Assembly: GCA_030041225.1 (NCBI GenBank)
Contig: JASHOG010000130.1
Coordinates: 1-64,000 of the forward strand
DNA: 64,000 nucleotides
Origin: Vulcanimicrobiota bacterium
Lineage (GTDB): Bacteria; Vulcanimicrobiota; Vulcanimicrobiia; Vulcanimicrobiales; Vulcanimicrobiaceae
Direction: 5' to 3'
The stretch's first letter is position 1, and every line of letters starts with the position of its first letter. The notes beneath the pieces are model-generated. The model did no database searches. It saw nothing but the letters and a program-made list of their open reading frames with translations, and was not told the DNA's origin. The position numbers were made by a program, and so were the translations under genes. This document shows positions 541 to 22,667 of the stretch, in pieces.

Positions 541-1734
541 AGCCACGCCGTCGCGTACGGCATGATCACCTATCAGACCGCGTACCTGAAGGCAAATCAC
601 GGCGTTGCCTATATGACGGCTCTTCTGAGCTCGGTCAAGGATCGCACGGAGAAGCTCGCCGAGTACATCGAAGACGCGCGCCGGTACGGCATCGCCGTGC
701 TTCCCCCCGACGTGAACGAATCCGGCGTCGACTTCACGGCCGTCGGAAGTCAAATTCGCTTCGGCCTCTCGGCGGTCAAGGGGGTGGGAGAGGAGGCAGT
801 GCGCGCGATCATCGAAGCGCGCGAGCGCGGCGGTCCGTTTAGCGACCTTTTCGATCTCGCCGCGCGTGTGAACGCACGCCAAGTGAACCGGCGCGTCTTC
901 GAGGCGCTCGTGAAGTGCGGCGCAACCGACGCGCTTCCGGGAAATCGTGCGGAGAAGCTTGCAGCGCTCGATCTCGCCGTCGATCTCGCCACGCGTGCGA
1001 CGCGCGACGCCGAGCTCGGGCAAGTCTCGCTCTTCGGCGACGGCGCAGCAGGTACAGCGCTCGCTCCCGTGCTCCCGCACCTGAATCCACCGTCGCAGCG
1101 CGAGATGCTTGCCTGGGAGAAGGAGATGCTCGGCATCTTCGTCTCGGGGCATCCGCTCGCGGGCGTGCAGGACCGGCTCGTGCTCATGGGTGCCACACCG
1201 ATAAAGGAGCTGCGTGCGCTCGACGATGATGCGCCGGTGACGGTTGCCGGCGCCGTGTCGAGCCTACGCCGCGCCACGACGCGTGCCGGCGGGCAGATCC
1301 TCGTCGCGCAACTCGAAGATACGACGGGGAGCTGCGAGGTCGTCGTTTTTCCGAAGCTCTACACGCAGGTGCAGCAGCTCTTCGAGCCCGACCGCATTCT
1401 CATCGTCAAAGGCAGATTGCGGCTGCGCGAACGCCCGGGAGCGACGAGCGCGGAGGAGCCGCCGATCGAACTCTCCGTCGGCGCACATGAAGTCGCGCCC
1501 TTCGAAGCACCCGTTGAGCGCGGAGAGATCGTCCGCGGCTGGCACATCGACGTCTCGGAGCGAACGCAGATCGATCGTCTCGCCGCGCTTATCGACGCAT
1601 GGCCGGGCGACGCACCGGTGACGCTGCACGCGCATGGGAAGGTGCGCCGTCTCCCGCGGACGATCGCGGGCGACGTGCGCGTGCGACCGGAGCTCGAGCG
1701 CATCTTCGGCGGCGAACACGTGCGAGAAGCATGA
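1..1734 (+). CDS. dnaE: DNA polymerase III alpha subunit, C-terminal part with intein (5' end outside window)
   Basis: The frame is open from base 1, so the gene enters from the left edge; the first ATG (31) is not its start. Bases 1-540 encode the end of an intein. The host protein resumes at 541 with SHAVAYGMITYQTAYLKA, the conserved polymerase segment normally preceded by Phe-Asn-Lys. Downstream come a helix-hairpin-helix stretch (about 838-936), the beta-clamp-binding motif QVSLF at 1021-1035, and an OB-fold (about 1231-1500, PVTVAGAVSSLRR onward) typical of DnaE. It catalyses replicative DNA synthesis. The stop overlaps the hisZ start (ATGA), so replication and histidine genes are probably co-transcribed here. 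I see no catalytic PHP or palm domain because they lie upstream of the window. Confidence 0.95.
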   Translation, partial: PNLTRHGTAAMHERVKWLFANDPCWKARIIARSIAHTRACYNTGPGYGRCSIASNGMWCASGPERAMCEWLIEQHIVFEMHKVLPNGRVCDFYFGGIYWEMDGMDRHLDYFAQKYGDLPYVVVAPEDFKAIVARHLGIAHAMNGDPIVSIEPCGEAMTYDIEMAPNGPLNYIANRIVSHNSHAVAYGMITYQTAYLKANHGVAYMTALLSSVKDRTEKLAEYIEDARRYGIAVLPPDVNESGVDFTAVGSQIRFGLSAVKGVGEEAVRAIIEARERGGPFSDLFDLAARVNARQVNRRVFEALVKCGATDALPGNRAEKLAALDLAVDLATRATRDAELGQVSLFGDGAAGTALAPVLPHLNPPSQREMLAWEKEMLGIFVSGHPLAGVQDRLVLMGATPIKELRALDDDAPVTVAGAVSSLRRATTRAGGQILVAQLEDTTGSCEVVVFPKLYTQVQQLFEPDRILIVKGRLRLRERPGATSAEEPPIELSVGAHEVAPFEAPVERGEIVRGWHIDVSERTQIDRLAALIDAWPGDAPVTLHAHGKVRRLPRTIAGDVRVRPELERIFGGEHVREA

Positions 1735-2909
1735 GGATTCCGCCGGGCGTTCGCGACTGGCTCCCGCAGGAGTTCGCGTTCAAGCGTGAGGTCGAGGAGC
1801 GAATCCGCGACGTGTTTCACTCGTGGTCGTACAGCGAGGTCTTAACGCCGACCTTCGAGCTCTACGAGGCGCTCGAGCAAGGCCTCGGCGAGCTCATGGC
1901 GGAGACGTTTCGCTTTACCGATCCAAACGGCGCTGCGCTTGTGCTGCGCACGGAGCTTACGACGCCGATCGCGCGTCTGGTCGCCGCTCGCCTTCGCCAC
2001 GCGACGCTCCCGCTGCGGCTCTGCTACCTTGCCAACGCCTTTCGTTACGAAGAGCCGCAGCTAGGGCGCATGCGCGAGTTCACGCAGGCGGGTGCGGAGC
2101 TGATCGGTGCGGCCGGAGCGAGTGCGGATGCCGAGGCGCTCTTCATGGCGGTGGAAACGCTCGACGCAGTCGGTTTGGACGACGCCCGCTTCGATGTCAG
2201 CGATGTCGCCATCGTCGATGGAGCTCTCGCCGGCGTCGGCCTGGTCGAGGAGGACGCGCAGCTCTGCAAGGAGATGATCGCCCGGCGCAATCTCGTCGCC
2301 CTTCGCGAGTTCGGCAGCACCCATGCCGTCGAAGAGCGACGCTTCGAGCGGCTCCTCGAGCTGACGATGATGCGCGGCCGTGACGACGTGTTGCGTGCCG
2401 TCGAGCCGATCTGCGTTACTGAGGCCTCTCAAGCAGCGCTCACGCGCCTCTCGGAGATCCTCGCACGCGCCGCGGCGCTCGGATGGGGGGAGCGCATCAA
2501 CATCGACTTCGCGCTGCTGCGCGATCTGCGCTACTACACCGGCCTCGTCTTCGAAGGCTACATTGCCGACCTCGGCTTCTCGATCTGCGGCGGTGGCCGG
2601 TACGACGCGCTGCTTCCGCGCATGGGCTACAACGTGCCTGCGGTCGGGTGGATGGTAGGCGTCGAGCGCATTCTCCTCGCGCTCGAGCGGCGCCGGAAGG
2701 ATGAGCGGCCGCGCAACGAGGTCGACGTGCTCGTGAGCGGATCGGACGCAGTTGCGCGGCGCGAGCGCGCGAAGGGACTCCGCGTTCGCGTGGACGCACG
2801 TGGGCTGGACCGTGCCGCGCTGCTCGAATACGCGCGCGACAAGGAGATTCCACGAGTGATTCTCGTCCACGGCGGTCGCGAGGAAGAGATTTCAGAGGTT
2901 CCCCGATGA
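1731..2909 (+). CDS. hisZ: ATP phosphoribosyltransferase regulatory subunit HisZ
   Basis: HisZ is a histidyl-tRNA-synthetase-like protein without tRNA charging activity. It pairs with short-form HisG to make active ATP phosphoribosyltransferase, the first step of histidine synthesis. Residues show the class II synthetase-like core: PPGVRDWLPQEF near the N-terminus, FRFTDPNG, a VLRTELTTPIARLV motif-2-like strand, RYEEPQLGRMREFTQAG, and DLRYYTGLVFEGY. The length, 392 aa, is normal for HisZ. The start at ATG 1731 (MRIPPGVRDW) overlaps the dnaE stop by four bases; a longer in-frame reading would run back inside dnaE. Its stop overlaps hisG. A true HisS is less likely because hisG follows directly and is the short form that needs HisZ. 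Confidence 0.93.
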   Translation: MRIPPGVRDWLPQEFAFKREVEERIRDVFHSWSYSEVLTPTFELYEALEQGLGELMAETFRFTDPNGAALVLRTELTTPIARLVAARLRHATLPLRLCYLANAFRYEEPQLGRMREFTQAGAELIGAAGASADAEALFMAVETLDAVGLDDARFDVSDVAIVDGALAGVGLVEEDAQLCKEMIARRNLVALREFGSTHAVEERRFERLLELTMMRGRDDVLRAVEPICVTEASQAALTRLSEILARAAALGWGERINIDFALLRDLRYYTGLVFEGYIADLGFSICGGGRYDALLPRMGYNVPAVGWMVGVERILLALERRRKDERPRNEVDVLVSGSDAVARRERAKGLRVRVDARGLDRAALLEYARDKEIPRVILVHGGREEEISEVPR

Positions 2910-3535
2910 GCGAGCCGCTTGTCATCGCGCTCCCGAAAGGGGCGCTCTACGACGAAGCGGTGCGGCGGCTCGGCGCTGCCGGCGTCGACGTCCCCGGCGA
3001 GGTCGGGCGACGGTTGCACGTGCTCGCGGGAGACGGTGCGACCGAGCTGCTCGTGCTGCGCTCGAACGACGTACCGGCGTACGTGGAGTTCGGTGCTGCG
3101 GATTGCGGCATCGTTGGAAAGGATACGCTCTGGGAGACGGACCGTTCGGTCAGCGAGCTCGCGGATCTCGGCTTCGGTGAGTGCCGGCTCGTCGTCGCCG
3201 CTCGACGCGCCGACGGCTACCACGAAGGCGTGCGATATCCGACGTTCTTGCGCGTCGCAACGAAGTTCAAGCGCGCCGCGCAGGCGTACTTCGCGGAGCG
3301 CGACGTGCCGTGCGAGGTTATCGCGTTGCACGGATCGGTGGAGCTCGCTCCGCTCGTCGGGCTGGCCGACGCGATCGTCGATCTTGTCGCAACCGGAGCG
3401 ACGCTGCGCGAGCACGACATGGTCGTTGTCGACGAGATAGCGCGCTCGAGTGCGCGCTTCGTCGTCAACCCCGTGCGCTTCCGTACGAAGTACGATGCAC
3501 TGACCGGGTTGCTTTCACGTTTGCAACGTGCGTAG
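2906..3535 (+). CDS. hisG: ATP phosphoribosyltransferase catalytic subunit, short form
   Basis: This enzyme condenses ATP and PRPP to phosphoribosyl-ATP. At 209 aa it is the short HisG that lacks the C-terminal regulatory domain and so depends on HisZ, encoded immediately upstream. Visible family sequence includes LVIALPKGALYDEAV at the N-terminus, CGIVGKDTL, and the PRPP-binding loop region EVIALHGSVELAPLVGLADAIVDLVATG. The ATG at 2906 overlaps the hisZ stop (ATGA). The 3' end overlaps hisD by eight bases. Confidence 0.95.
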   Translation: MSEPLVIALPKGALYDEAVRRLGAAGVDVPGEVGRRLHVLAGDGATELLVLRSNDVPAYVEFGAADCGIVGKDTLWETDRSVSELADLGFGECRLVVAARRADGYHEGVRYPTFLRVATKFKRAAQAYFAERDVPCEVIALHGSVELAPLVGLADAIVDLVATGATLREHDMVVVDEIARSSARFVVNPVRFRTKYDALTGLLSRLQRA

Positions 3536-12219: not shown

Positions 12220-12266
12220 TTGCATGATGCTACGTTTTATGGCATAAGATTTCCTAACAGAGGAGG
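12220..12266 (+). promoter_or_regulatory. Possible promoter and strong ribosome-binding site of the pilus operon
   Basis: TTGCAT (12220-12225) and CATAAG (12243-12248) are 17 bases apart and resemble a housekeeping promoter. AGAGGAGG at 12259-12266 then lies seven bases before GTG 12274, which fixes the pilB start there, not at the in-frame TTG 12220. The promoter is a weak match; the ribosome-binding site is strong. Confidence 0.45.
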
Positions 12267-12273
12267 ATTGGGT

Positions 12274-13632
12274 GTGGCTCTTGCGGCGTTCCGGCTGGAA
12301 CCGGAAGCTCTGCGTTATATTCCTGCGGGCTTTGCGTTCCGGCATGACGTTCTCCCTTATGCGGTTGACGGCTCCGAGCTGCTCGTAGCAGTTCCGGATA
12401 ATGAACCATCGACGGTCGATCGGATCCGATTGCTGACGGGCATGCGAGTTCGCGCGACAGCACTGCCACGCGAGGTTATTCGCAGTGAGCTTGCGGTCGC
12501 GTACGGTTCGGCGGACGCGAAGGAAGGAATCGAAAGTTCAGCTCCTGCCGTGCGACTCGTGGACGAGATCCACGCGCTTGCCGTTCGATCGCATGCATCG
12601 GACGTGCATGTCGAGCCGTTCGAAGGCGGTGGCCGCGTGCGCCAGCGAGTCGATGGAGGCCTTTCGGAGATACGGCGCCTGGATCGGAGCCTTCACGTGC
12701 AAGTCGTCGCACGGTTGAAGATCCTTGCCTCACTTGACGTGGGCGATCGCCGCCAGCCGCAGGACGGGAGGTACTCGTTCGACGTTGACGGAGCACCGAT
12801 CGACGCGCGCCTCTCGTCGGTCACGACCGTGGACGGAGAACGCCTCGTGATACGCCTCTTCGATGCTCGCTTGCAACGGCCGTCGCTCGACCACCTCGGT
12901 ATGGATTCTGAGACACTGCGTCGGGTACGAGCGTTGCTCTCCGCAACACATGGGTTCGTCATCGTCTGTGGACCGACAGGCAGCGGGAAGACCACGACGC
13001 TGTACGCTGCGCTCGAAGAGCGTCGATCTCCTGAAGAGCACGTGTGTACCATTGAAGACCCGGTAGAGATGCGCTTAGGCGGCGTCACGCAGGTCCAGAT
13101 CAACGTGCGCGCGGGCATGACATTTGCGCGGGCGCTGCGCGCTATGCTACGCCAGGACCCGAACGTCGTCATGATCGGAGAGATGCGCGACGCAGAAACG
13201 GCAAACGTTGCAATGTCTGCGGCCCTCTCCGGTCAACTCGTATTAACGAGCCTCCACAGCCGCGATGCGGTCCGCGCGGTCGAGCGCCTTGCGGACCTGG
13301 GCGTTCCACGGCAGGCAGTGGCGGCCTCGCTCACGGGAATCATTGCGCAGCGGCTCGTGCGTACCAGTTGCCAACAGTGCGCGGGCGAGGGTCACCGAGA
13401 ATGCTGCCGAGGAAGCGGGTTTGCAGGTCGGACCGGTATCTTCGAGTGCGTTGCGATAGGTGCGGAGCTTCGGGAGGCGATCGCGTCGGGCGCTACGGGC
13501 AGCCAGCTGCGCGGAGTTGTCGAGCGTGACTCCCAAGGAAGTTTGGCGCGCGACGGATTGCGGCATGTTATTGCGCGACGCACAACGACGGTCGAGGTGC
13601 AGCGCGTGCTGGGCGAGTACGGCGCATCGTGA
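12274..13632 (+). CDS. pilB: Type IV pilus assembly ATPase PilB/GspE family
   Basis: The cytoplasmic hexameric motor for pilus extension. An N-terminal MshEN-like domain (residues 1 to about 80) is followed by the secretion ATPase core: Walker A GPTGSGKTT at residues 233-241, the Asp box around CTIEDPVEM, Walker B VVMIGEMRDAETA and the His box TSLHSRDAVRA. A cysteine-rich loop (CQQC, then CC before GFAGRTGIFE) corresponds to the zinc-binding C-module of GspE proteins. It starts at GTG 12274 (452 aa). Its stop overlaps the pilT GTG, so the two motors are translationally coupled. Confidence 0.93.
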   Translation: MALAAFRLEPEALRYIPAGFAFRHDVLPYAVDGSELLVAVPDNEPSTVDRIRLLTGMRVRATALPREVIRSELAVAYGSADAKEGIESSAPAVRLVDEIHALAVRSHASDVHVEPFEGGGRVRQRVDGGLSEIRRLDRSLHVQVVARLKILASLDVGDRRQPQDGRYSFDVDGAPIDARLSSVTTVDGERLVIRLFDARLQRPSLDHLGMDSETLRRVRALLSATHGFVIVCGPTGSGKTTTLYAALEERRSPEEHVCTIEDPVEMRLGGVTQVQINVRAGMTFARALRAMLRQDPNVVMIGEMRDAETANVAMSAALSGQLVLTSLHSRDAVRAVERLADLGVPRQAVAASLTGIIAQRLVRTSCQQCAGEGHRECCRGSGFAGRTGIFECVAIGAELREAIASGATGSQLRGVVERDSQGSLARDGLRHVIARRTTTVEVQRVLGEYGAS

Positions 13633-14672
13633 CAACGAGCCCTCTCGGCACGGTACTCGTCACCGATGCGCTCCACGCCGCACATGTCCGCAGGGCCTCA
13701 GATGTTCATCTCGTACCGCTGTGCCCACCCGTGCTCCGCGTGGACGGGCGCCTGGAACCTTGTCAGGGCCCGGGGCTCGAAGCCCACGACCTCGCGGCGC
13801 TTGCGTCCGTCCTGTTATCGGAGCACGAGCGGGATCTGCTCGAGCGCGATGGTGACGTCACTGCACGGATTGTTGAGAACGCGGTCCCGGTGCGCGTCCA
13901 CGCGACACGAACTGCAGACGGGATCTCGCTTGCGTTGCGTTTTCTTCGCGCAGATGTTCCGTCGCTGCAAGAGCTCGAACTCCCGCACGTGCTTGCCGAG
14001 CTCATTCGCAGGCCGCATGGCCTGATCGTTCTGGGCGGGCCAACGGGAAGCGGAAAGTCGACGACGCTCGCAGCTCTCGTAGCGCTGATGAACGATGAAA
14101 TGTCTCGCAAGATTATCACGATCGAAGAGCCCATCGAGTATCGCCTTGCTTCAAAGCAATCACTGATCGTCCAGCGCCAAGTCGGCCGCGATGTCGCTGG
14201 TTTTGCGAGCGCAGTGAGCGGCGCACTGCGAAGCGATCCGGACGTCATCGTGATCGGCGAAATGCGGGACTCGGCGACAGTAGCCGCGGCGATTACGGCG
14301 GCGGAGACCGGGCACCTCGTCCTCGCGACGTTGCATACGGGCGACTCGGCGCAGTCGATCGACCGCCTGGTGGACGCGTTTCTTGCGGAGCGCGCAGAGT
14401 ACGTCCGTGGTCGCCTCGCGCAAACGCTCGTCGGCATCGTTTGCCAACGCCTTGTCGCACGTTCCTCGGGGATCGGTCGGTGCGTTGCGGTGGAAATTCT
14501 CGTCGTGACGGATGCCGTACGACACATGGTACGCGAGGGAAAGCATCATCAGCTTCCCACCGTGATGTCGACGGGGCGGCGGTTCGGTATGCAGACGCTG
14601 GATGCGCACCTGGCGGAGCTCGCGGCGTCCGGCACGATCGCAGCGGCAGTCGCAGACGCGATAACGGGATGA
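13629..14672 (+). CDS. pilT: Type IV pilus retraction ATPase PilT
   Basis: PilT depolymerises the pilus and so drives retraction and twitching. The PAS-like N-terminal domain begins with the typical RRASDVHLVP stretch; Walker A GPTGSGKS is at about residues 137-144, followed by IITIEEPIEY, Walker B VIVIGEMRD and the His box LATLHTGD. The product is 347 aa, as usual for PilT. It starts at GTG 13629 inside the pilB stop and ends inside the pilC start. It lacks the cysteine module of the preceding ATPase, which supports the PilT assignment. Confidence 0.92.
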   Translation: MTTSPLGTVLVTDALHAAHVRRASDVHLVPLCPPVLRVDGRLEPCQGPGLEAHDLAALASVLLSEHERDLLERDGDVTARIVENAVPVRVHATRTADGISLALRFLRADVPSLQELELPHVLAELIRRPHGLIVLGGPTGSGKSTTLAALVALMNDEMSRKIITIEEPIEYRLASKQSLIVQRQVGRDVAGFASAVSGALRSDPDVIVIGEMRDSATVAAAITAAETGHLVLATLHTGDSAQSIDRLVDAFLAERAEYVRGRLAQTLVGIVCQRLVARSSGIGRCVAVEILVVTDAVRHMVREGKHHQLPTVMSTGRRFGMQTLDAHLAELAASGTIAAAVADAITG

Positions 14673-15892
14673 CGCAAACGCTCTTTCACTACACCGCACG
14701 TTCGAGGAGCGGCGCGGTGATAGCGGGTTCGATGCGTGCCCGATCGGGAGGCGAGGCGATCGCACACCTGCGCTCGCGCCGGTTGTTCGTCACGTCGCTC
14801 GAGAGCGCGACGAGCATCCGCGGAAGTCTACGCGTGTTTCTCGCGAGGGTGCAGTTCCGAGGGGCGTCTCGGGCGACGTTCCTGCGCTCGTTAGCCGTGA
14901 TGATGGAAGCCGGGACATCTCTGCAGCGAGCGCTTGCGGTATGCATGGGGCAATGCCCGCGCGGGCCGTTCGCCGAGACGCTACGTGGCGTTGCAGCGGA
15001 TGTCGACGCGGGCGCAGCGCTCTCCGAAGCGATGGCGCGTCGACCGGCAGAGTTCCCGGAGGAGCTTACGGCAATGGTACGGGCGGGCGAGTTAGGGGGC
15101 ACGCTCGAGGAAGTTCTCACGCGCAGTGCAGCGCTCATTGAGCATCGAGAAGCGCTACGTCGGCGGCTGACCGCCTCACTCGCGTATCCGTGTTTCGTTC
15201 TCGCAGTTGCTTTTGGGTTGCTCGCCTTCATCCTCATCGCAACGGTGCCGGCGTTCGCGTCGATTCTCACGCAGCTCCATACTCGCTTGCCTCTGTCGAC
15301 GAGGCTCATGCTCAGTGCGAGCGGCATGCTGCGGTCGCAACGGAGTCTCGAGATTGCGGCTGCCCTCTTGGCAGGCGTGGCCGGCTTCGTCATGATATGT
15401 CGGCGCAACGCTCACGTATTGTCCGCACTTTCGCGAGGCATGCTGGGTACACCGCTGATCGGCGCGCTTCAGCGATGCGCCAACGTTGCGGCCTTTGCAC
15501 GCACCTCGGGAATGCTGGTGCAGTGCGGGGTCATCATCACCGAGGCTGTTCGTGCAGCCTCGGACGTGCTCCCGAACCAGGTGTACCGCCGCGCGGCGAT
15601 AGAGATCGAGCGAGCGCTCCATGAAGGGCGAGCGCTTGCGCCCGCTTTGGAGAGGAGCGGCCTCTTCGGTGCACTCTGCGTTCAGCTGGTGGCGGTCGGC
15701 GAGGAGTCCGGGACACTCGATGCGATGCTGTTGCGGATCGCGGAGCATCATGAGGCAGAGATCGATGCGTTGCTGCGCACGTTGGTTGCGGTATTGGAAC
15801 CCGCATTGATCGTCGTCCTCGGAGGCATCATCGGCACAATCGTTGCCTCCATTCTCATCCCACTCTACAGCGCGATAGGAAACGTCCATTGA
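14669..15892 (+). CDS. pilC: Type IV pilus inner-membrane platform protein PilC
   Basis: PilC/GspF is the polytopic platform that contacts the ATPases and the pilin. Two GspF domains are visible. The first runs from ASRATFLRSLAVMMEAGTSL to a membrane pair near LTASLAYPCFVLAVAFGLL. The second runs from NVAAFARTSGMLVQCG to the C-terminal membrane segment ALIVVLGGIIGTIVASILIP. The product is 407 aa from ATG 14669, overlapping the pilT stop; the open frame upstream lies inside pilT. Its stop overlaps a TTG start of the sigma-factor gene. Confidence 0.93.
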   Translation: MTQTLFHYTARSRSGAVIAGSMRARSGGEAIAHLRSRRLFVTSLESATSIRGSLRVFLARVQFRGASRATFLRSLAVMMEAGTSLQRALAVCMGQCPRGPFAETLRGVAADVDAGAALSEAMARRPAEFPEELTAMVRAGELGGTLEEVLTRSAALIEHREALRRRLTASLAYPCFVLAVAFGLLAFILIATVPAFASILTQLHTRLPLSTRLMLSASGMLRSQRSLEIAAALLAGVAGFVMICRRNAHVLSALSRGMLGTPLIGALQRCANVAAFARTSGMLVQCGVIITEAVRAASDVLPNQVYRRAAIEIERALHEGRALAPALERSGLFGALCVQLVAVGEESGTLDAMLLRIAEHHEAEIDALLRTLVAVLEPALIVVLGGIIGTIVASILIPLYSAIGNVH

Positions 15893-16584
15893 CGGCGAGC
15901 TATCTGTCGCGGGATGATCTCGTATCACGCTACCGACATCTTTGCGCTCGCGCCGCGAAGCGATTCATCCGGCCAGGCCTCGACCGCGCAGATCTAGAGC
16001 AAGTCGCTGCGATCGGGCTGATCAAGGCCGCGGATCGCTTCGATCCGGAGTGTCGCACGCCGTTCGCCGCGTACGCATGGCTCTTGATGGTTGGCGAGCT
16101 CATGCATCACGTTCGCGACTGCGAGCGTCTCGTGCGGGCGCCCAGGCGCATGCGCCAGCTCGATCGCCGGTGGACCAATGCCGAACATGAGGTGTGGATG
16201 CGATACGGTCGCGAACCGACATACGCGGAGATCGTCGCTATGACCGGGGCGACCTCGAGTGAGTGTCGAGAGCTGCGTCAATACCGAGCGGCCAATCACG
16301 TCGTGCCGTTCGACTCCCTGAAGCCCCTCGACCAGCAAGCCCTTGCGTACACAATCGAGTCAGAACTGGACCGCATCGCGATGGAGAGCGTCTTTGCCGG
16401 CGTCTCGCCCCTGGAGCGTGTGATTCTACGCGAGATTTATCAGCGCGATACGCCGATCGCCGTGCTGGCGGTGAGATTGGGATACTCACGCCGACACCTA
16501 GCACGACTCCATCGTAGAGCTCTTCGACGGCTCGCGACGGCGATGCGTCCAACGGTGCGGTGCACGGGGCACTATTCGTCGTGA
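15889..16584 (+). CDS. Group-3 sigma-70 factor (SigB/SigF/FliA-like) inside the pilus operon
   Basis: A 231-residue alternative sigma factor with region 2 (ADLEQVAAIGLIKAADRFDP, FAAYAWLLMVGELMHHVRD, the -10 recognition helix area), a region 3 stretch (REPTYAEIVAMTGATSSE) and region 4 helix-turn-helix (SPLERVILREIY, then TPIAVLAVRLGYSRRHLARL). The GELMHHVRD and APRRMRQL segments resemble the sporulation/stress SigB-SigF group more than ECF factors. It starts at TTG 15889 overlapping the pilC stop and precedes the pilin gene by 11 bases. It probably directs transcription of surface-structure genes, perhaps the pilin itself; no anti-sigma gene is adjacent. Confidence 0.88.
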   Translation: MTASYLSRDDLVSRYRHLCARAAKRFIRPGLDRADLEQVAAIGLIKAADRFDPECRTPFAAYAWLLMVGELMHHVRDCERLVRAPRRMRQLDRRWTNAEHEVWMRYGREPTYAEIVAMTGATSSECRELRQYRAANHVVPFDSLKPLDQQALAYTIESELDRIAMESVFAGVSPLERVILREIYQRDTPIAVLAVRLGYSRRHLARLHRRALRRLATAMRPTVRCTGHYSS

Positions 16585-16595
16585 GGAGGTATGTG

Positions 16596-17060
16596 ATGAC
16601 GCGTAGCAGCGAGCGTGGCTTTACGTTGATAGAGATGATGATCGTGGTGGCGATCATCGCAATTCTCGTGACGATTCTTGTGCCGAACCTCATGCGCGCT
16701 CGCGCGCAAGCACAGACGGCCGCGTGCGAAGGAAACCTCAAAGAGATTGCTACCGCGCTCGAGCTCTACGATACGGACAACGATAGCTATCCGCCGAGCG
16801 GAAACGTGGACGGCAGTAACACGGCGCTGCTCCCGTACGTCCAGCAGGTTCCGGTCGATCCTGCCGCAGGTCCAGGCCAACCGTACGTCTACACGGTCGG
16901 CACCGACAGTAGCGGCGAGCCGGAATACACGATCACGTGCCCCGGCCTACACGATCCTGCGACGCTTCAGGTCGTGGATCCCGGTGACACCACGGCTGCA
17001 CACATTCAATATGGCTCCGAAACGGGCTACACGGCCGCCACATCCGGCTCGTCGCAATGA
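16596..17060 (+). CDS. Type IV pilin / pseudopilin
   Basis: The 154-residue product has a class III signal: a short basic leader (MTRSSERG) cleaved before FTLIEMMIVVAIIAILVTIL, with Glu at position +5 of the mature protein. The globular part resembles GspG-like pilins (AACEGNLKEIATALELYDTDNDSYPPSG) and has two cysteines, in AACEG and ITCPG, that could form a disulfide. GAGGAGG at 16583-16589 sets ATG 16596 as the start. Its stop overlaps the next gene's ATG. It may be the major pilin of this system, since no other pilin is found in the operon. Confidence 0.92.
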   Translation: MTRSSERGFTLIEMMIVVAIIAILVTILVPNLMRARAQAQTAACEGNLKEIATALELYDTDNDSYPPSGNVDGSNTALLPYVQQVPVDPAAGPGQPYVYTVGTDSSGEPEYTITCPGLHDPATLQVVDPGDTTAAHIQYGSETGYTAATSGSSQ

Positions 17061-17716
17061 GCGACGTGGTCGCCGATTTCATGCGCGCTCTTTCGCTTCG
17101 CTCTGCGGCTGCGCCCGGGCTCGCCTTTGGTGCGGGCGTTGTGAGCTCCGTGGGTCCTTGCCTCGGCACGCGGGTAGCCTCGTTGAGCGCCCTCATCGAG
17201 GAACAGTCGGGCATGCGGCGGTGCTTGATTGTGGCCGTGTTCGTAACCGGACTCGTGCTCTCGTACATGCTTATCGCGTCATGCGCCGCTCTATGTGTAC
17301 GTACTGCGGTAGCATCGAGAGGTATCTACACACTTCTTGCAGCCGGACTCGTTATCTTCGCCTTGCGCTCGCTGCTGCAGCAGGGTACGCACGCCTGCAA
17401 CCATGAGATCGTGGGTCGCCATGCGTCCTTCGGTTGGGCATTCTTCAACGGTGCATCGCTTGCATTCGTTGCGTCGCCGTGCTGCACGCCGGTAGTTGCC
17501 TCGATTGCCGGCCTCGCAAACAGTGGAACGATGAGCTACACGCTAGCCGTAGCAGCGCTCTTTGCCATAGGGCACGCTCTCCCGCTTGTAGCTGCTACGG
17601 CGTGCGCTGCGCGAGTATCACAAACGTTGCGATCGGAGGGGTGGGGAACAGCTCTTCGTGTCATGAACGGAGGCGTTCTGCTCGCGCTCGGAGGGTACTA
17701 TGCGCTTTTGGCGTGA
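17057..17716 (+). CDS. CcdA/DsbD-like transmembrane thiol-disulfide transporter
   Basis: A 219-residue polytopic membrane protein with about six hydrophobic segments. The two reactive cysteines of the family lie in GVVSSVGPCLGTR and FVASPCCTPV, matching the SPC motifs of CcdA. These proteins pass electrons from cytoplasmic thioredoxin to extracytoplasmic thiols. It is coupled to the pilin by an ATGA overlap, and the pilin has a cysteine pair, so it may keep pilin or other pilus cysteines correctly paired. It lacks the DsbD periplasmic domains. A cytochrome c maturation role cannot be excluded. Confidence 0.82.
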   Translation: MSDVVADFMRALSLRSAAAPGLAFGAGVVSSVGPCLGTRVASLSALIEEQSGMRRCLIVAVFVTGLVLSYMLIASCAALCVRTAVASRGIYTLLAAGLVIFALRSLLQQGTHACNHEIVGRHASFGWAFFNGASLAFVASPCCTPVVASIAGLANSGTMSYTLAVAALFAIGHALPLVAATACAARVSQTLRSEGWGTALRVMNGGVLLALGGYYALLA

Positions 17717-18254
17717 GCTTCAGCCCCAGTCGATGAGCCGTGCGCGGCGCTGCGTCCTGGCAGCGTTGGGCGTCGCGGGAGCCGCGGCGGTCCTCCGTCC
17801 GCAGATCTCTTCGGCGCTGGTGGTGCGCGGTGACGAGATGTTGTACATGTCGAGGCCCTCGCGCGCCCTCGTCTTCTATCATCGAGCGCTGTTTTTTGAT
17901 TCGAACAACGTGACTGCAGCGGACCGTTATGTGTTCGTCTCGATGATGACGCACCGGCGAAGAGTGCTTGAGGGTGCGGTGGCCGTCGCTTCATCGTTCT
18001 TGCAACGGCACGGCGGTGACGTAACGATACTCATGGATCGTGCGCTGTGCAATCGGTTCCTCGGGCGGGAGCGCGCCGCTGAGGTGGACTTCGTTCGTGC
18101 AGGTCTTGGGCGTGCAGGCGCGCCGGCGCTTGTTTTTGCGGGGTTCGCGGCATTGCGTGAAGGCAGTCGGGAGAGAGCGCGCCATTGGTGGCGCATCGCT
18201 CTGCAGGAGCGCCCTGGCTACGCCCCGGCACGTAGGGCGCTGCAACGTCGATGA
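17700..18254 (+). CDS. Membrane-anchored TPR-like protein in pilus operon
   Basis: I do not recognise a named family. The 184-residue product has an N-terminal membrane segment (CVLAALGVAGAAAVL) and then helical hairpins with TPR character (RALVFYHRALFFDS, AAEVDFVRAGLGRAG, ARHWWRIALQERPGYAPARRAL). Its position between the CcdA-like gene and the prepilin peptidase suggests a pilus assembly role, for example as a PilF/TPR-type scaffold. GGAGGG at 17690-17695 supports the ATG at 17700, giving a 17-base overlap with the previous gene. Confidence 0.65.
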   Translation: MRFWRELQPQSMSRARRCVLAALGVAGAAAVLRPQISSALVVRGDEMLYMSRPSRALVFYHRALFFDSNNVTAADRYVFVSMMTHRRRVLEGAVAVASSFLQRHGGDVTILMDRALCNRFLGRERAAEVDFVRAGLGRAGAPALVFAGFAALREGSRERARHWWRIALQERPGYAPARRALQRR

Positions 18255-18853
18255 GCGTTTGGACAGCTCTCACGGAGGAAGCCGTCGCTATGGTTATCCT
18301 TGGCTGTATCGCGCGTGAGGCGGCCGGACGGGTGGGCCTACGACTAAGCGCGCTTCGGCTCGAGGTTATCGTAACGGCTCTTGCGGTGCTCGCAACAGCA
18401 GCCTCCGTGCGTTCTGCGGGAATGCTCGTCTCGGTCGTCGCCGGGCTCGCCGTCGCAGGTGTCAGCGCCGTGACGGATGTGCAAACCGGCTATGTCTTCG
18501 ACCGCGTTCTGATCGCAGGAGGGTTACCGATCCTCATCGCTGGGATCGTGACAGGAGACCTCCCCGCGCTCGCGGCGGGTGCTCTCATCGGCGGAGGTGT
18601 TCCCGCGCTGCTCTATACGGTTACATCCGGACGCGGCATCGGCCTCGGTGACGTGAAGCTCGGTGCTGTTCTCGGCGGGGCCGCAGGCCCGAAGGAGGCC
18701 CTGCATCTGATCGCCGTCGCCTTTATCGTCGGGGGTCTCATTGCGGCCGTTCTACTTTTCGGGCGAAGATACTCGCCCGGTCGCGCGATCCCGTTTGCAC
18801 CATTCCTCGCGATAGGTGCGGGGCTTTCGTTCGGGAGCATGTGGCCGCGGTGA
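18251..18853 (+). CDS. pilD: Prepilin peptidase (A24), short form
   Basis: An aspartic membrane protease that cleaves the pilin leader. The two catalytic aspartates lie in SAVTDVQTGYV and GRGIGLGDVKLG (the GxGD motif). At 200 aa it consists of the membrane peptidase domain only and lacks the N-terminal cysteine-rich methyltransferase domain of canonical PilD. It may therefore cleave without N-methylating the pilin. ATG 18251 overlaps the previous stop, and the 3' end overlaps pilM. Confidence 0.88.
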   Translation: MSVWTALTEEAVAMVILGCIAREAAGRVGLRLSALRLEVIVTALAVLATAASVRSAGMLVSVVAGLAVAGVSAVTDVQTGYVFDRVLIAGGLPILIAGIVTGDLPALAAGALIGGGVPALLYTVTSGRGIGLGDVKLGAVLGGAAGPKEALHLIAVAFIVGGLIAAVLLFGRRYSPGRAIPFAPFLAIGAGLSFGSMWPR

Positions 18854-19806
18854 AGGGTCTGCTCCCCTTGGGCGTGGATCTTGGCACGACCCGTATCCGT
18901 GTTGCGCTCACGGAGCATCTCCCGGTGAAGGGACTGCGACTGCGCGCCGTTGTGTCAAGAGAGCTCGGTGACGTCGACCAAGCACATGGTGGAGAAGAGG
19001 AGCTCGTCGCGAGCGTCGTTGAGGATCTCGTCGGCGAGCTCGACGTGAAGCAACGCGCGTGTGTCACGGCGATTGGCGCTCCGCACGCGCGGTTAGAGGC
19101 ACTGCGCTTTCCGAGGATGACGAGCTTCGAGCGTAGGAATGCGGCCCGGTTCGAGATGCGGGACGAGGCAAAACAGAGCCATCGCGCGCGGATACGAGTC
19201 CACTTGGTTGACCGTGCATCCCAGCTCTTCGCGGTTGGCGCCGTCGATGAGGCGGCGCTAAAGTATCGCCTCAGCGTTCTTCGCAAGGCTGGGTTGCGCG
19301 TCGTCGGCGTGGATCACGATGCCTGTTCGCTTGGTCGACTTCTGCCGAACTTCGATGGGATCGTCGATGTCGGATACCAGCACATGCGGCTGCACCTCTT
19401 CTCGGAAAGGGTACCTGCGACACGTTACGTGGAGAGCGCTGGATCAGACGTCACGCAGGCGATTGCCGGCGAGCTCGCGATCGACGCGCGCAGCGCAGAG
19501 CGGCGGAAGCGAATCCTCGGTGTTGCCGGTGCCGGCGAGGCCGCACTGGATGCGCTCGTTCGTGCCTTATGCGCGCTTGTCGAGCAAGTGCGCGGGCGCG
19601 GTGGGCACATCTCGCGGCTCGGGCTGCTGGGAAACGGCGCCCGTCTGCCGGGCTTTGCGGAGGCTATCGCCCAGCGGCTTCACTCGTCGATCGAGTTGCC
19701 GATCGCCGAGCTTCTGCGGACGGCCGACGTTTCGAGCGAGGTCCTGCAGACGGCATCTCCGGATTGGACACTCGCTGCGGCGTTATCAACGTGGAGCGTG
19801 GTGTGA
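18850..19806 (+). CDS. pilM: Type IV pilus assembly protein PilM (actin-like ATPase)
   Basis: PilM is the cytoplasmic actin-like protein that binds the N-terminus of PilN. The first phosphate loop LGVDLGTTRIRVAL is clear, followed by FPRMTSFERRNAARFEM and the second nucleotide loops (FDGIVDVGYQ, RLGLLGNGARLPGFAEAI). I prefer GTG 18850, which overlaps the preceding stop in the GTGA pattern used throughout the operon; GTG 18841 is an alternative three codons upstream. The sequence is divergent, and the operon position between pilD and pilN supports the call. Confidence 0.85.
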   Translation: MKGLLPLGVDLGTTRIRVALTEHLPVKGLRLRAVVSRELGDVDQAHGGEEELVASVVEDLVGELDVKQRACVTAIGAPHARLEALRFPRMTSFERRNAARFEMRDEAKQSHRARIRVHLVDRASQLFAVGAVDEAALKYRLSVLRKAGLRVVGVDHDACSLGRLLPNFDGIVDVGYQHMRLHLFSERVPATRYVESAGSDVTQAIAGELAIDARSAERRKRILGVAGAGEAALDALVRALCALVEQVRGRGGHISRLGLLGNGARLPGFAEAIAQRLHSSIELPIAELLRTADVSSEVLQTASPDWTLAAALSTWSVV

Positions 19807-20342
19807 CGAGTGTGAGATTCGACTATCTTCGTGATGGGCCGTCGGAGGCGGTCGAGTACCTGCGCGAGTTCTCACGGAGAACTGATGCACGCGCTCTGTT
19901 GAGCTTCCTCGGAACTGCCGCCGGCATCCTGTTGTGTGCGTGGATGCTCGAGGAGATGCACGTCCGGGAGGCACACGCTGAGTTCTTGCAGGCTCAGGCG
20001 CGACTCGATCGCAGCGCCACACAGGCCGGCGTCGTTCGAACGGAAATGGCGCAGCTCCGGCGCGCCGTGGCCTTAGAACGCCGGCTGGAGGGGATTAGAG
20101 ACACATCGACAGTCGCTGCTCGCCGTATGACGTTGCTCGCAAATCGTCTCCCTGAGGAGGCATGGCTCACGTCTCTCACCTGGAGCGAGCGCGGCTTTGA
20201 CCTGGACGGACGCGGCGTGGGCATTCGCAGCGTCGCGAAGGCGCTACGTGCCTATTCAGGCACTCGCCTGATGGCCGTGCGCGCACCCACGGACACGGCC
20301 TCACGGATCCTCGATTTTCGCTTGCACTTGCCGGCGCAATAA
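19803..20342 (+). CDS. pilN: Type IV pilus alignment protein PilN
   Basis: A bitopic inner-membrane protein of 179 aa: a short cytoplasmic N-terminus (MTSVRFDYL), one membrane segment (about residues 36-53, LLSFLGTAAGILLCAWML), a periplasmic coiled coil and a ferredoxin-like C-terminal domain with LPEEAWLTSLTWSERGFDLDGRG, the hallmark of PilN/GspL domains. It starts at GTG 19803, inside the pilM stop. The first residues diverge from the usual INLLP motif, so PilM contact may differ. PilO begins on the next base after its stop. Confidence 0.8.
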   Translation: MTSVRFDYLRDGPSEAVEYLREFSRRTDARALLSFLGTAAGILLCAWMLEEMHVREAHAEFLQAQARLDRSATQAGVVRTEMAQLRRAVALERRLEGIRDTSTVAARRMTLLANRLPEEAWLTSLTWSERGFDLDGRGVGIRSVAKALRAYSGTRLMAVRAPTDTASRILDFRLHLPAQ

Positions 20343-20909
20343 ATGCGGCTTGCCTGGTGGATCTCGATCGCCCTTTCGATGTGCGCGTATATCGGTGTGA
20401 TCACACCGGCTCACCGCGCTATTGCTGGGTTTGAGTCGAAGGCACGCTCTCTGTACGACTCGGCGAATCGCGACGAGCGCCTAATCGAACATGCGCGCGA
20501 GATAAGAGATGACGAGCGTCGAGCGGAGCGTATGATCGCGCAGGTGGGCGGAAACGGTGGGACAGATGCGCTGCTCGAGATGCTGGATCGGGAGAGTGCG
20601 AAGTGCCACGTTCTGATAAGCGGCGTCACACCGACCGCTGACGAGGCCGGCACAGCTCAACTGGACCCGCTACGCTCGACGCTTCTCACGATCGATCTGG
20701 AAGGAAGATTCTCAGGCATCCTTGCGCTTCTCAACCGCCTCGGGGAAGCTGCGCCCCTCGTCAGCGTCGACACGATTGCACTTACACCGGCGCGGACTGT
20801 CGCAAGCGGCTCTCCGATTCTCCACGCGACCCTTGGCATACAGCTCTACGCACTCATGGCAGACCGGCAGAAGGGAAGACCTGATGAGAGCTCTCGCGCT
20901 CCACGATAA
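20343..20909 (+). CDS. pilO: Type IV pilus alignment protein PilO
   Basis: A 188-residue bitopic protein with an N-terminal membrane segment (WWISIALSMCAYIGVITPA), a coiled-coil stretch (SKARSLYDSANRDERLIEHA) and a ferredoxin-like domain ending in LTIDLEGRFSGILALLNRLGE, which matches PilO. It pairs with PilN to form the inner-membrane alignment complex. There is no spacer after the pilN stop. Its last 26 bases overlap the start of the pilP-like gene. Confidence 0.78.
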   Translation: MRLAWWISIALSMCAYIGVITPAHRAIAGFESKARSLYDSANRDERLIEHAREIRDDERRAERMIAQVGGNGGTDALLEMLDRESAKCHVLISGVTPTADEAGTAQLDPLRSTLLTIDLEGRFSGILALLNRLGEAAPLVSVDTIALTPARTVASGSPILHATLGIQLYALMADRQKGRPDESSRAPR

Positions 20910-21300
20910 TCAACGTGGCGTCATGTTTCGCTGGGGAATGTTGACTGCCGTCGCCGCGTGCGCACTCGCACCCCTCTGCGGCGAGAGCTCGATGCAACCG
21001 ACAAGACCGAATTCCGCTCATGCGTCGGCCGTGCTGACAGCGTCGCAGCCTTCACGCATGGGGCCACTTGCACTCGTGCGCGATCCTTTTGTCCCGCAAG
21101 CGGCGGAGCTTCCTCAGGGCGTTGTCGTGCGCGCGGTCGTGTTGGGCACGGCACCGCACGCCCTTGTCGAGCTCGGAGGGGAGACGGTCCTCGTCGGTGT
21201 CGGCGACACAATTGGCGGCGTGCCGGTGGTTGCCATAGACGATCGCGGGGTGCGGTTGGCCGATGGCACGCTACTGCACTTCGAGGAAAGCGGGCTGTGA
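20884..21300 (+). CDS. pilP: PilP/GspC-like pilus alignment protein
   Basis: A 138-residue protein with a hydrophobic N-terminal segment (MLTAVAACALAPLCG, possibly a lipoprotein-type signal) and a small beta domain: RDPFVPQ followed by VRAVVLGTAPHALVELGGE, VGDTIGGVPVVAIDDRGVRL. This DPF plus HR-domain layout is typical of PilP and GspC, which bind the N-domains of the secretin encoded next. I chose ATG 20884 because AAGGGA lies seven bases upstream. Its stop overlaps the pilQ GTG. Confidence 0.72.
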   Translation: MRALALHDNQRGVMFRWGMLTAVAACALAPLCGESSMQPTRPNSAHASAVLTASQPSRMGPLALVRDPFVPQAAELPQGVVVRAVVLGTAPHALVELGGETVLVGVGDTIGGVPVVAIDDRGVRLADGTLLHFEESGL

Positions 21301-22667
21301 GGCGGCTCTTCTTGGCGCCGCTCTTGCTCGTTCTTCTCGCCGCGGACAGCCTACCGAATCCCAAAGTCTCTCTGGACGTGAGGGGCGCGTCGATTGATGA
21401 CGTGCTGGCATTGCTGGCGAAGGAGTCAGGCGCGAACGTGGTGGCCGACCGGTCGATTCGGCAGGAGCACGTTACACTGCGCCTTGTCGGCGTGCGTTTT
21501 CTCGATGCACTACAGATTCTCGCATCGTCGCATGGGCTGGTTGTCGAGCGGCACGGAAACGTGCTCATCGTGGGAACGCCGGAGTCGATGAACCGCAGTG
21601 GCGATGCTGGAGAAGATGGGGTGTCGACGACGGTCCTTCAGCTCCAACACGCGTCCCCGGAGGACGTGAGCAAAGCATTGCTTGCGGTGCTACCTGCTGG
21701 TACGATCGCAACCCCCGATCAGCAGCTGGGTGCGGTTGTCGTCACCGCAGACGCGACGACGCTCGGCCGGGCAAAAACGATTGTAGCAGCGCTCGACGAA
21801 ACACCGCCCGTCGTACTGAGCAGGTACCACTCCCAGGCGTATCGCTTACGCTATACGCGTGCCGACGACGTCGCCAAGGAGCTAAAGGAGTTGCTACCGG
21901 ACGGCACATTTGTTGCCGACGAGGAGCAGAACGCGGTGGTTGTAACGGGAGACGACGAAGCACAAAACGCAGCCTCGCGCGCGATTGGGAACCTCGATGT
22001 GGCCGGACCCGAGGTGCTGCTCGAAGTTCGAGTTGCAGATGTCACACCGCAGAACGACAGTACGAACGTGGGTCTCGAGTTCGGCGGGGTCGTGCAAGGA
22101 ACGCAGACGTCGGGCGCGACCGAGTATGCGTTCACCGGAGGCAGTCTCTCGGTGAATGTCACGCTCAACGCGCTCGTGAGCAAAGGGCAGGCGCAGATTC
22201 TGGCAACGCCGCGTCTGGTGACGCTGAATGGTAAGGAGGCGGACCTGCTGATCGGCGAAACGTACCCCGTCGTCTACAGTACGTCGGTCCTTGGAGGCGA
22301 GAACGTGCAGTTCGTGGACGTCGGCGTGAAACTACGTTTGACGCCGATTATCGGTCCAGACGGCACCGTTACCGCAGAGCTGCATCCTGAGTACAGCGAG
22401 ATCGAAGGGTTCACATCAACCGGCTATCCGATCATCACGAATCGCAAGGTCGACTCCACTCTCCGAGTGCGCGATGGCCAGACGATTGTGCTCGGAGGAC
22501 TCCTGCGCGATACATCGAGCGTCACGGTGCAGAGCCTGCCGTGGCTTAGCGACATTCCGATTATCGGCAAGCTCTTTCAGAACAAGCAGACTGCGCGCGA
22601 GCGTGACGAGATCGTCTTCCTCATCACACCGCACATCGTGGATCCGCAGGCCCCTCCCTCGAAGTAG
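21297..22667 (+). CDS. pilQ: Type IV pilus secretin PilQ
   Basis: The outer-membrane channel for the pilus. A signal peptide (MRRLFLAPLLLVLLAADS) is followed by an STN/N0 domain (VSLDVRGASIDDVLALLAKE), two N1-type KH domains (SKALLAVLPAGTIATP, ADDVAKELKELLPDG) and the secretin core (GQAQILATPRLVTLNGKEAD, VGVKLRLTPIIG, ending IPIIGKLFQNKQTA, IVFLITPHIV). The 456-residue length is short because the AMIN domains of proteobacterial PilQ are absent. Its presence is the best evidence that this organism has an outer membrane. It starts at GTG 21297 and is the last gene of the pilus operon. Confidence 0.93.
   Translation: MRRLFLAPLLLVLLAADSLPNPKVSLDVRGASIDDVLALLAKESGANVVADRSIRQEHVTLRLVGVRFLDALQILASSHGLVVERHGNVLIVGTPESMNRSGDAGEDGVSTTVLQLQHASPEDVSKALLAVLPAGTIATPDQQLGAVVVTADATTLGRAKTIVAALDETPPVVLSRYHSQAYRLRYTRADDVAKELKELLPDGTFVADEEQNAVVVTGDDEAQNAASRAIGNLDVAGPEVLLEVRVADVTPQNDSTNVGLEFGGVVQGTQTSGATEYAFTGGSLSVNVTLNALVSKGQAQILATPRLVTLNGKEADLLIGETYPVVYSTSVLGGENVQFVDVGVKLRLTPIIGPDGTVTAELHPEYSEIEGFTSTGYPIITNRKVDSTLRVRDGQTIVLGGLLRDTSSVTVQSLPWLSDIPIIGKLFQNKQTARERDEIVFLITPHIVDPQAPPSK

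Follow-up and report, generated by a model that had tools for sequence, protein, structure and literature searches.

A group 3 type sigma factor gene within the type IV pilus assembly operon of Vulcanimicrobiaceae and its two candidate promoter sites

The window, i.e. the whole stretch of 64 kb of DNA that was analysed, contains a complete type IV pilus operon located 3' of ftsA, ftsZ and thyX. The DNA is from Candidatus Eremiobacterota, to which its named public relatives belong. The genes are arranged in the order pilB, pilT, pilC, sigma factor, pilin, CcdA/DsbD-like gene, TPR gene, prepilin peptidase and pilM to pilQ (Table 1). Two gene starts had to be reassigned. The TTG at 12220 chosen by the ORF finder for pilB is part of the -35 box of the promoter element, and the start was corrected to the GTG at 12274 from the position of this element and from related genomes. 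The listed GTG start of the pilin gene at 16560 is too early and the likely start is the ATG at 16596, which leaves a gap of 11 nt after the sigma stop codon. This pilin is the only N_methyl pilin detected in the genome of the window (G000). The CcdA/DsbD-like and TPR genes (17057-18254) are kept within the pilus operon in most of the family.

Table 1. Features of the pilus operon, its promoter elements and the Tad leader of the same genome. Positions refer to the window unless a contig is given.
Feature	Position	Strand	Basis
Operon-head promoter element TTGC-N16-TGGCATAA	12220..12247	+	Conserved about 50 bp 5' of pilB
pilB, assembly ATPase	12274..13632	+	Pfam T2SSE and MshEN; corrected GTG start behind a GAGGAGG ribosome site
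pilT, retraction ATPase	13629..14672	+	TIGR01420, 364 bits (cut-off 319)
pilC, inner-membrane platform protein	14669..15892	+	Pfam T2SSF, two stretches
pil-sigma, group-3-type sigma factor	15889..16584	+	TTG start overlapping the pilC stop; Pfam/NCBIfam matches, orthologs, tree, structure model
Pilin promoter element GTCC-N16-GGGCACTA	16547..16574	+	Within the sigma gene, at its 3' end
Major pilin-like gene	16596..17060	+	Pfam N_methyl (2.7e-9) and T2SSG; GFTLIE motif at 16617
CcdA/DsbD-like membrane protein	17057..17716	+	Weak NCBIfam DsbD-like match (3e-4); place conserved in the window's family (f1)
TPR protein	17700..18254	+	Pfam TPR_2 (8e-4), below cut-off; conserved in the operon
Prepilin peptidase, pilD-like	18251..18853	+	Pfam Peptidase_A24 (8.4e-9)
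pilM-like	18841..19806	+	TIGR01175 (5e-10)
pilN-like, by position	19803..20342	+	Open frame, position conserved in relatives
pilO-like, by position	20343..20909	+	Open frame, position conserved in relatives
pilP-like, by position, start approximate	20890..21300	+	Open frame, position conserved in relatives
pilQ secretin, start approximate	21297..22667	+	Pfam Secretin (2e-47)
Tad leader (L243/L273)	G000, contig C47, before CpaC 1678-3099	-	Conserved TGnCATAATG and dyad

The sigma factor gene, hereafter pil-sigma, is a frame of 231 codons without internal stops. Its TTG start shares bases with the TGA stop of pilC (15890-15892) in a TTGA overlap, while the pilin gene does not overlap. Regions 2 and 4 score above the curated Pfam cut-offs (Sigma70_r2, PF04542, E = 2.5e-10, 40.4 bits against 24; Sigma70_r4, PF04545, E = 1.6e-5, 24.8 bits against 24.1) and TIGR02937 is matched with 75.7 bits (cut-off 42.9). 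Pil-sigma is thus a member of the sigma-70 family. Its top NCBIfam model is TIGR02980 for SigB/SigF/SigG (E = 1.7e-33), although the 116 bits stay below the 234-bit cut-off of this subfamily; with the FliA/WhiG model TIGR02479 it reaches 62.7 bits, below the cut-off of 189.6. No match to the region 3 family PF04539 was found in pil-sigma. In profile comparison, however, the alignment with SigB and FliA structures spans the full length, and the structure model places helices of a middle domain at residues 86-136. Pil-sigma is therefore of the group 3 type, with sigma2, sigma3 and sigma4 but without region 1.1, and is not an ECF sigma factor. The best PDB match by profile is SigB from S. aureus (8x6g). 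In the structure model the single domains are confident, but the pTM is 0.38, so that its own PDB matches identify it only as a sigma factor. The core-binding region 2.1/2.2 and the helix-turn-helix are conserved; pil-sigma is predicted to direct RNA polymerase to promoters.

Neither a recognisable anti-sigma gene of any kind nor, specifically, an RsbW-type anti-sigma factor or an RsbV antagonist adjoins pil-sigma. Since the neighbours at 17057-17716 and 17700-18254 belong to no clear Pfam family, one of them may encode an anti-sigma factor that is not recognised as such. The description in an earlier note on this DNA, a SigB/SigF-like sigma gene flanked by pilC and the pilin gene, an NTGA overlap and no adjacent anti-sigma gene, proved accurate, the overlap being the one with pilC. 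The canonical SigB/F paralogue of the same genome (contig C101) does have RsbV- and RsbW-like neighbours. It lies 3' of these genes and 5' of alaS (L036, 6830-11223); proximity to alaS is also seen for SigF-like genes in Coriobacteriia and their relatives. Actinobacterial PilB genes near SigF-like genes were considered as a parallel to the pilus locus, but they are about 8-10 kb apart, beside alaS, and represent a different arrangement. In a tree of pil-sigmas and canonical SigB/F paralogues the two groups fall on opposite sides of one branch with an SH-aLRT of 100. A second tree agrees with this split; one of its sequences labelled as a paralogue (G076q) proved to be a pil-sigma.

Orthologs of pil-sigma were searched in 98 genomes, 61 of them from the family of the window, and the neighbourhoods were read. 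Within the family 50 of 61 genomes contain an ortholog. It is located directly 3' of pilC in 37 of the 61, frequently with an NTGA overlap, and immediately 5' of pilB in eight (G010, G021-G024, G037, G044, G045), whereas five possess the sigma gene without a pilB-T-C locus. Among the 61 sampled genomes, no convincing absence was found where the pilus locus is readable. Three apparent exceptions were rejected: the contig of G029 ends just 5' of pilB, where the alternative architecture would put the sigma gene, and G005 and G052 have contig gaps with pilB at contig ends, in G005 together with the promoter. The adjacency is shared by the second family of the order and by one more family of the class. 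According to the coordinates of PilC and sigma, the two genes also adjoin in nine genomes from eight further families across the phylum, most of them with the order PilB-PilT-PilC-sigma; no such sigma gene was found in families f10 and f15. Dozens of genera have the ortholog at this position, so the arrangement is not due to chance. Judged from these sequence comparisons, it is ancient and pil-sigma is inherited vertically.

Since function is not demonstrable from position alone, the sigma gene might be a passenger of the operon without any regulatory role. Intact core-binding and DNA-binding regions, a dN/dS of about 0.04-0.2 in every pair tested and the phylum-wide retention of the gene make this explanation extremely improbable.

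Two sequence elements stand out upstream of pilB and of the pilin gene. The head element TTGC-N16-TGGCATAA is common to the genus. Variants with TGCGATAA or TGTCATAA occur in G036, G043, G047, G056 and G058, and in G055 at N17. In G027 the element stands before the lone sigma gene, and relaxed forms with the same spacing were found in G016, G019, G042 and G057. Expressed as TTGC-N16-TGNSATAA, it is present at 11 heads with a spacing of 16 and at one with 17, and in addition in G005. The strict pattern has a single match in the entire genome in each of G000, G001, G003 and G004. It is missing from most operon heads outside the clade of the window. This clade differs from f2, the second family of the order (L070, L071, L168), where CTTTACG motifs are repeated ahead of pilB and a TTGACG-N17-TACCAT of sigma-70-like appearance occurs.

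The pilin element was found as GTCH-N16-KGGYAY at a spacing of exactly 16 bp in 23 of the 38 regions upstream of pilin genes, while any other spacing occurs in at most two. In 300 dinucleotide shuffles of these regions the mean was 0.01 and the maximum 1, which is not a true probability because the genomes are related. It corresponds to GTCC-N16-GGGCA[C/T]; the full element is missing from the remaining 15 of the 38 regions. It is retained before the relocated pilin gene of the split operon in G043, and family f2 has it as well. In the genus of the window it lies inside the sigma coding sequence, elsewhere after the sigma stop codon, and in several genomes the sigma gene stops before GGGCAC. 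Retention of the element beyond the sigma reading frame places the constraint on the DNA and not on the protein. A sigma-54-type site was not found at the pilin gene.

Head and pilin elements agree in their spacing and largely in the -10 box, and both can be described by one combined pattern. Within the window, the two promoters are its only matches. There are four matches in the genome of the window and two in G004; both sets include the head and pilin sites, which in G004 are the sole two. The remaining matches examined in the genus are located in coding frames or overlap with them and are not shared between genomes as promoters, and the head and pilin sites are the only ones recurring across the genus. 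In G019, a gene for a flagellar rod-like protein is located beside a pattern match (L324, contig C6, 435180-435207), which suggests flagellar genes in some members of the family.

We consider it probable that pil-sigma is a functional, dedicated type IV pilus sigma factor, which reads two local promoters and thereby activates its own operon and the pilin gene in a feed-forward manner. This reading is supported because conserved promoters of one type, nearly unique in the genome, are found at the operon head and at the pilin gene. The GGG-type -10 boxes are of the type used by group 3 sigma factors (in B. subtilis SigB the -10 box is GGGTAT) and were therefore counted in favour of recognition by pil-sigma. 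In the proposed mechanism, pil-sigma would guide RNA polymerase to both promoters, [T/G]T[G/C]C-N16-[T/G]GGCA[T/C][A/T]A. The head promoter would yield transcripts of pilB-T-C and of the sigma gene itself, and the second promoter, embedded at the 3' end of this gene, would serve the pilin, which is required in large amounts. Once some input lets the sigma factor accumulate, more of it would be made from the operon (positive autoregulation) and pilin expression would be boosted. The overlapping stop and start codons may couple translation of the sigma factor to that of pilC. Promoter recognition, feedback and translational coupling are steps that we infer from the arrangement.

The -10 box of the head element (TG-n-CATAAG) would also fit the extended -10 of a housekeeping promoter. 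With TG-n-NATAA and 17 bp from the TTG hexamer to the -10 hexamer it looks like an extended -10 sigma-70 promoter, the operon head of family f2 resembles TTGACG-N17-TACCAT, and G026, which has no pil-sigma, keeps TGnCATAAT before its Tad genes. The housekeeping sigma factor or the canonical SigB/F paralogue might thus read both elements, with pil-sigma being merely co-transcribed and directing other genes. This is unlikely, however, since the conserved letters of the head element are the non-consensus ones in 11 of 11 sites (TTGC instead of TTGA, C or G instead of T at -12, and never T as the last base of the -10 box). Moreover, GTCC/GGGCAC at the pilin gene is unlike any housekeeping promoter, and the pattern is used nearly once per genome, contrary to housekeeping promoters. 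With regard to the paralogue, a SigB-type GTTT/GGGTAT site is absent at the pil promoters, and also before the operon of the paralogue itself. Judged by eye, there was no clear signal of co-variation between sigma region 2.4 and changes in the -10 box.

In four genomes with split operons (G015, G016, G043, G048) the sigma gene remains with pilB-T-C, while the pilin gene is relocated. By gene neighbourhood, the tightest association of pil-sigma is with the motor genes rather than with the pilin. In addition, an intact lone pil-sigma is present in G027, G040, G042, G050 and G057, which have neither a PilC match nor an N_methyl pilin. A pilB-type ATPase was not found in these five genomes either, the few T2SSE matches being Tad-type or partial. 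In G042, G050 and G057 the sigma gene is flanked by thyX on one side and by genes of aromatic synthesis (e.g. aroC) on the other, apparently at its old site after loss of the rest of the operon, and in G040 remnants of pilM and pilQ adjoin it. The lone sigmas are nested among pilus-bearing relatives in the tree. They are under purifying selection, and the constraint equals that on the pilus-linked copies (G042-G057: dN 0.22, dS 1.13, dN/dS about 0.20; G050-G019: dN/dS 0.16). An intact and constrained sigma factor in genomes without the pilus implies that pilus control is not its sole use in every lineage, and other targets probably exist in these genomes. No convincing shared one was found in the lone-sigma genomes, where the pattern matches fall almost entirely within coding frames.

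These lone copies, at least three of them conserved at the old site by thyX or aroC, would also be expected if pil-sigma mainly governed a wider surface programme (e.g. Tad pili, polysaccharide or motility) with the type IV pilus as one member, hence outliving the pilus. The box TGGCATAA is indeed common to the Tad pilus leaders. Across the family and the order these leaders keep TGnCATAATG, and a GCGTTAACGC-type dyad replaces the -35 box (L243/L273), which suggests that the dyad is an activator site. The leader is found in G042 and G057, which have lost the type IV pilus, and in G026 without pil-sigma. As a shared target of pil-sigma, the Tad pilus is therefore a mere possibility. Since the leaders lack TTGC/GTCC at a spacing of 16, the strict promoter pattern recurs within the genus solely at the two pil sites and the lone-sigma genomes did not reveal a common target, we regard such a wider programme as quite improbable. 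With respect to the dedicated pilus sigma factor, the feed-forward switch proposed in the earlier note can be retained in part: a dedicated, phylum-wide sigma factor and conserved, near-unique promoters at head and pilin are in line with it, and the closer bond to the motor genes and the probable other targets in pilus-less genomes qualify it. A more comprehensive statement would be that the phylum possesses a pilus-operon sigma family, whose regulon in the genus consists of two promoters in its own operon, the pilin promoter lying inside the sigma coding sequence and the whole forming a self-contained transcription module of the organelle, and which outlived the pilus and was re-used in some lineages; in our judgement this could equally well be right or wrong in its entirety. 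Re-use of a specialised sigma factor could be tested with the lone copies.

The statement of the earlier note that type IV pili usually depend on PilR/RpoN or housekeeping promoters is too narrow, because in cyanobacteria SigF and SigJ control pilA and pilB (PMC2758279, PMC6495340). SigF of Synechocystis PCC 6803, a group 3 sigma factor of the SigB type, is required for type IV pili (PMC2758279, PMC7690835). It directly reads pilA1 and, in proven autoregulation, its own promoter, with a G-rich -10 box GGTAA (PMC2758279). It is the nearest analogue of pil-sigma. Matching promoter elements lie at the pilin gene and at the head of the pil-sigma operon, and pil-sigma may recognise both. However, the -32 box of SigF is TAGGC and not TTGC/GTCC, these papers do not report sigF inside a pilus assembly operon, and other pilus components have not been reported under its control. 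In contrast, pil-sigma of the Eremiobacterota has an overlap with pilC and, as it appears, heads the motor genes as well. In Nostoc punctiforme, the group 3 sigma factors SigJ and SigF drive type IV pilus genes, SigF acting on pilA, and the SigJ box, an extended -10 GGGaAtacT, is located before pilB in cyanobacteria (PMC6495340). Their control is organised as a developmental cascade of hierarchical type in which the regulon of SigJ is large, whereas pil-sigma apparently serves two local promoters. The nearest sequence family is SigB/SigF/SigG with RsbW/RsbV, from which pil-sigma differs by its score below the family cut-off and the lack of such neighbours. FliA (sigma-28) is similar as a dedicated appendage sigma factor with a late structural (filament) gene as target, and its -10 box GCCGATAA resembles TGCGATAA. 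Nevertheless, pil-sigma is far under the FliA/WhiG cut-off, no FlgM-like gene was seen and the appendage is a different one. Streptococcal SigX/ComX acts on unlinked com operons via a different promoter, while the pil-sigma gene sits within the pilus operon. The similarity consists in an alternative sigma factor, pilus-type (competence) genes and a positive feedback loop (PMC5519730).

Hence, sigma control of type IV pili is already known from cyanobacteria, but a sigma gene inside the assembly operon is apparently new; no report of one was found in the freely accessible literature. If the feed-forward reading is correct, an entire phylum of mostly uncultivated members would rely, for control of its type IV pili, on a sigma factor built into the operon with a promoter code of its own instead of PilR/RpoN, and the operon would be a compact model for organelle genes that switch themselves on. 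The promoter sequences make the hypothesis directly testable, and Vulcanimicrobium alpinum would be the natural test organism. The term 'sigma factor' is absent from the main text of the paper on this species, which describes it as cultivated, phototactic and forming type IV pili (PMC9758169).
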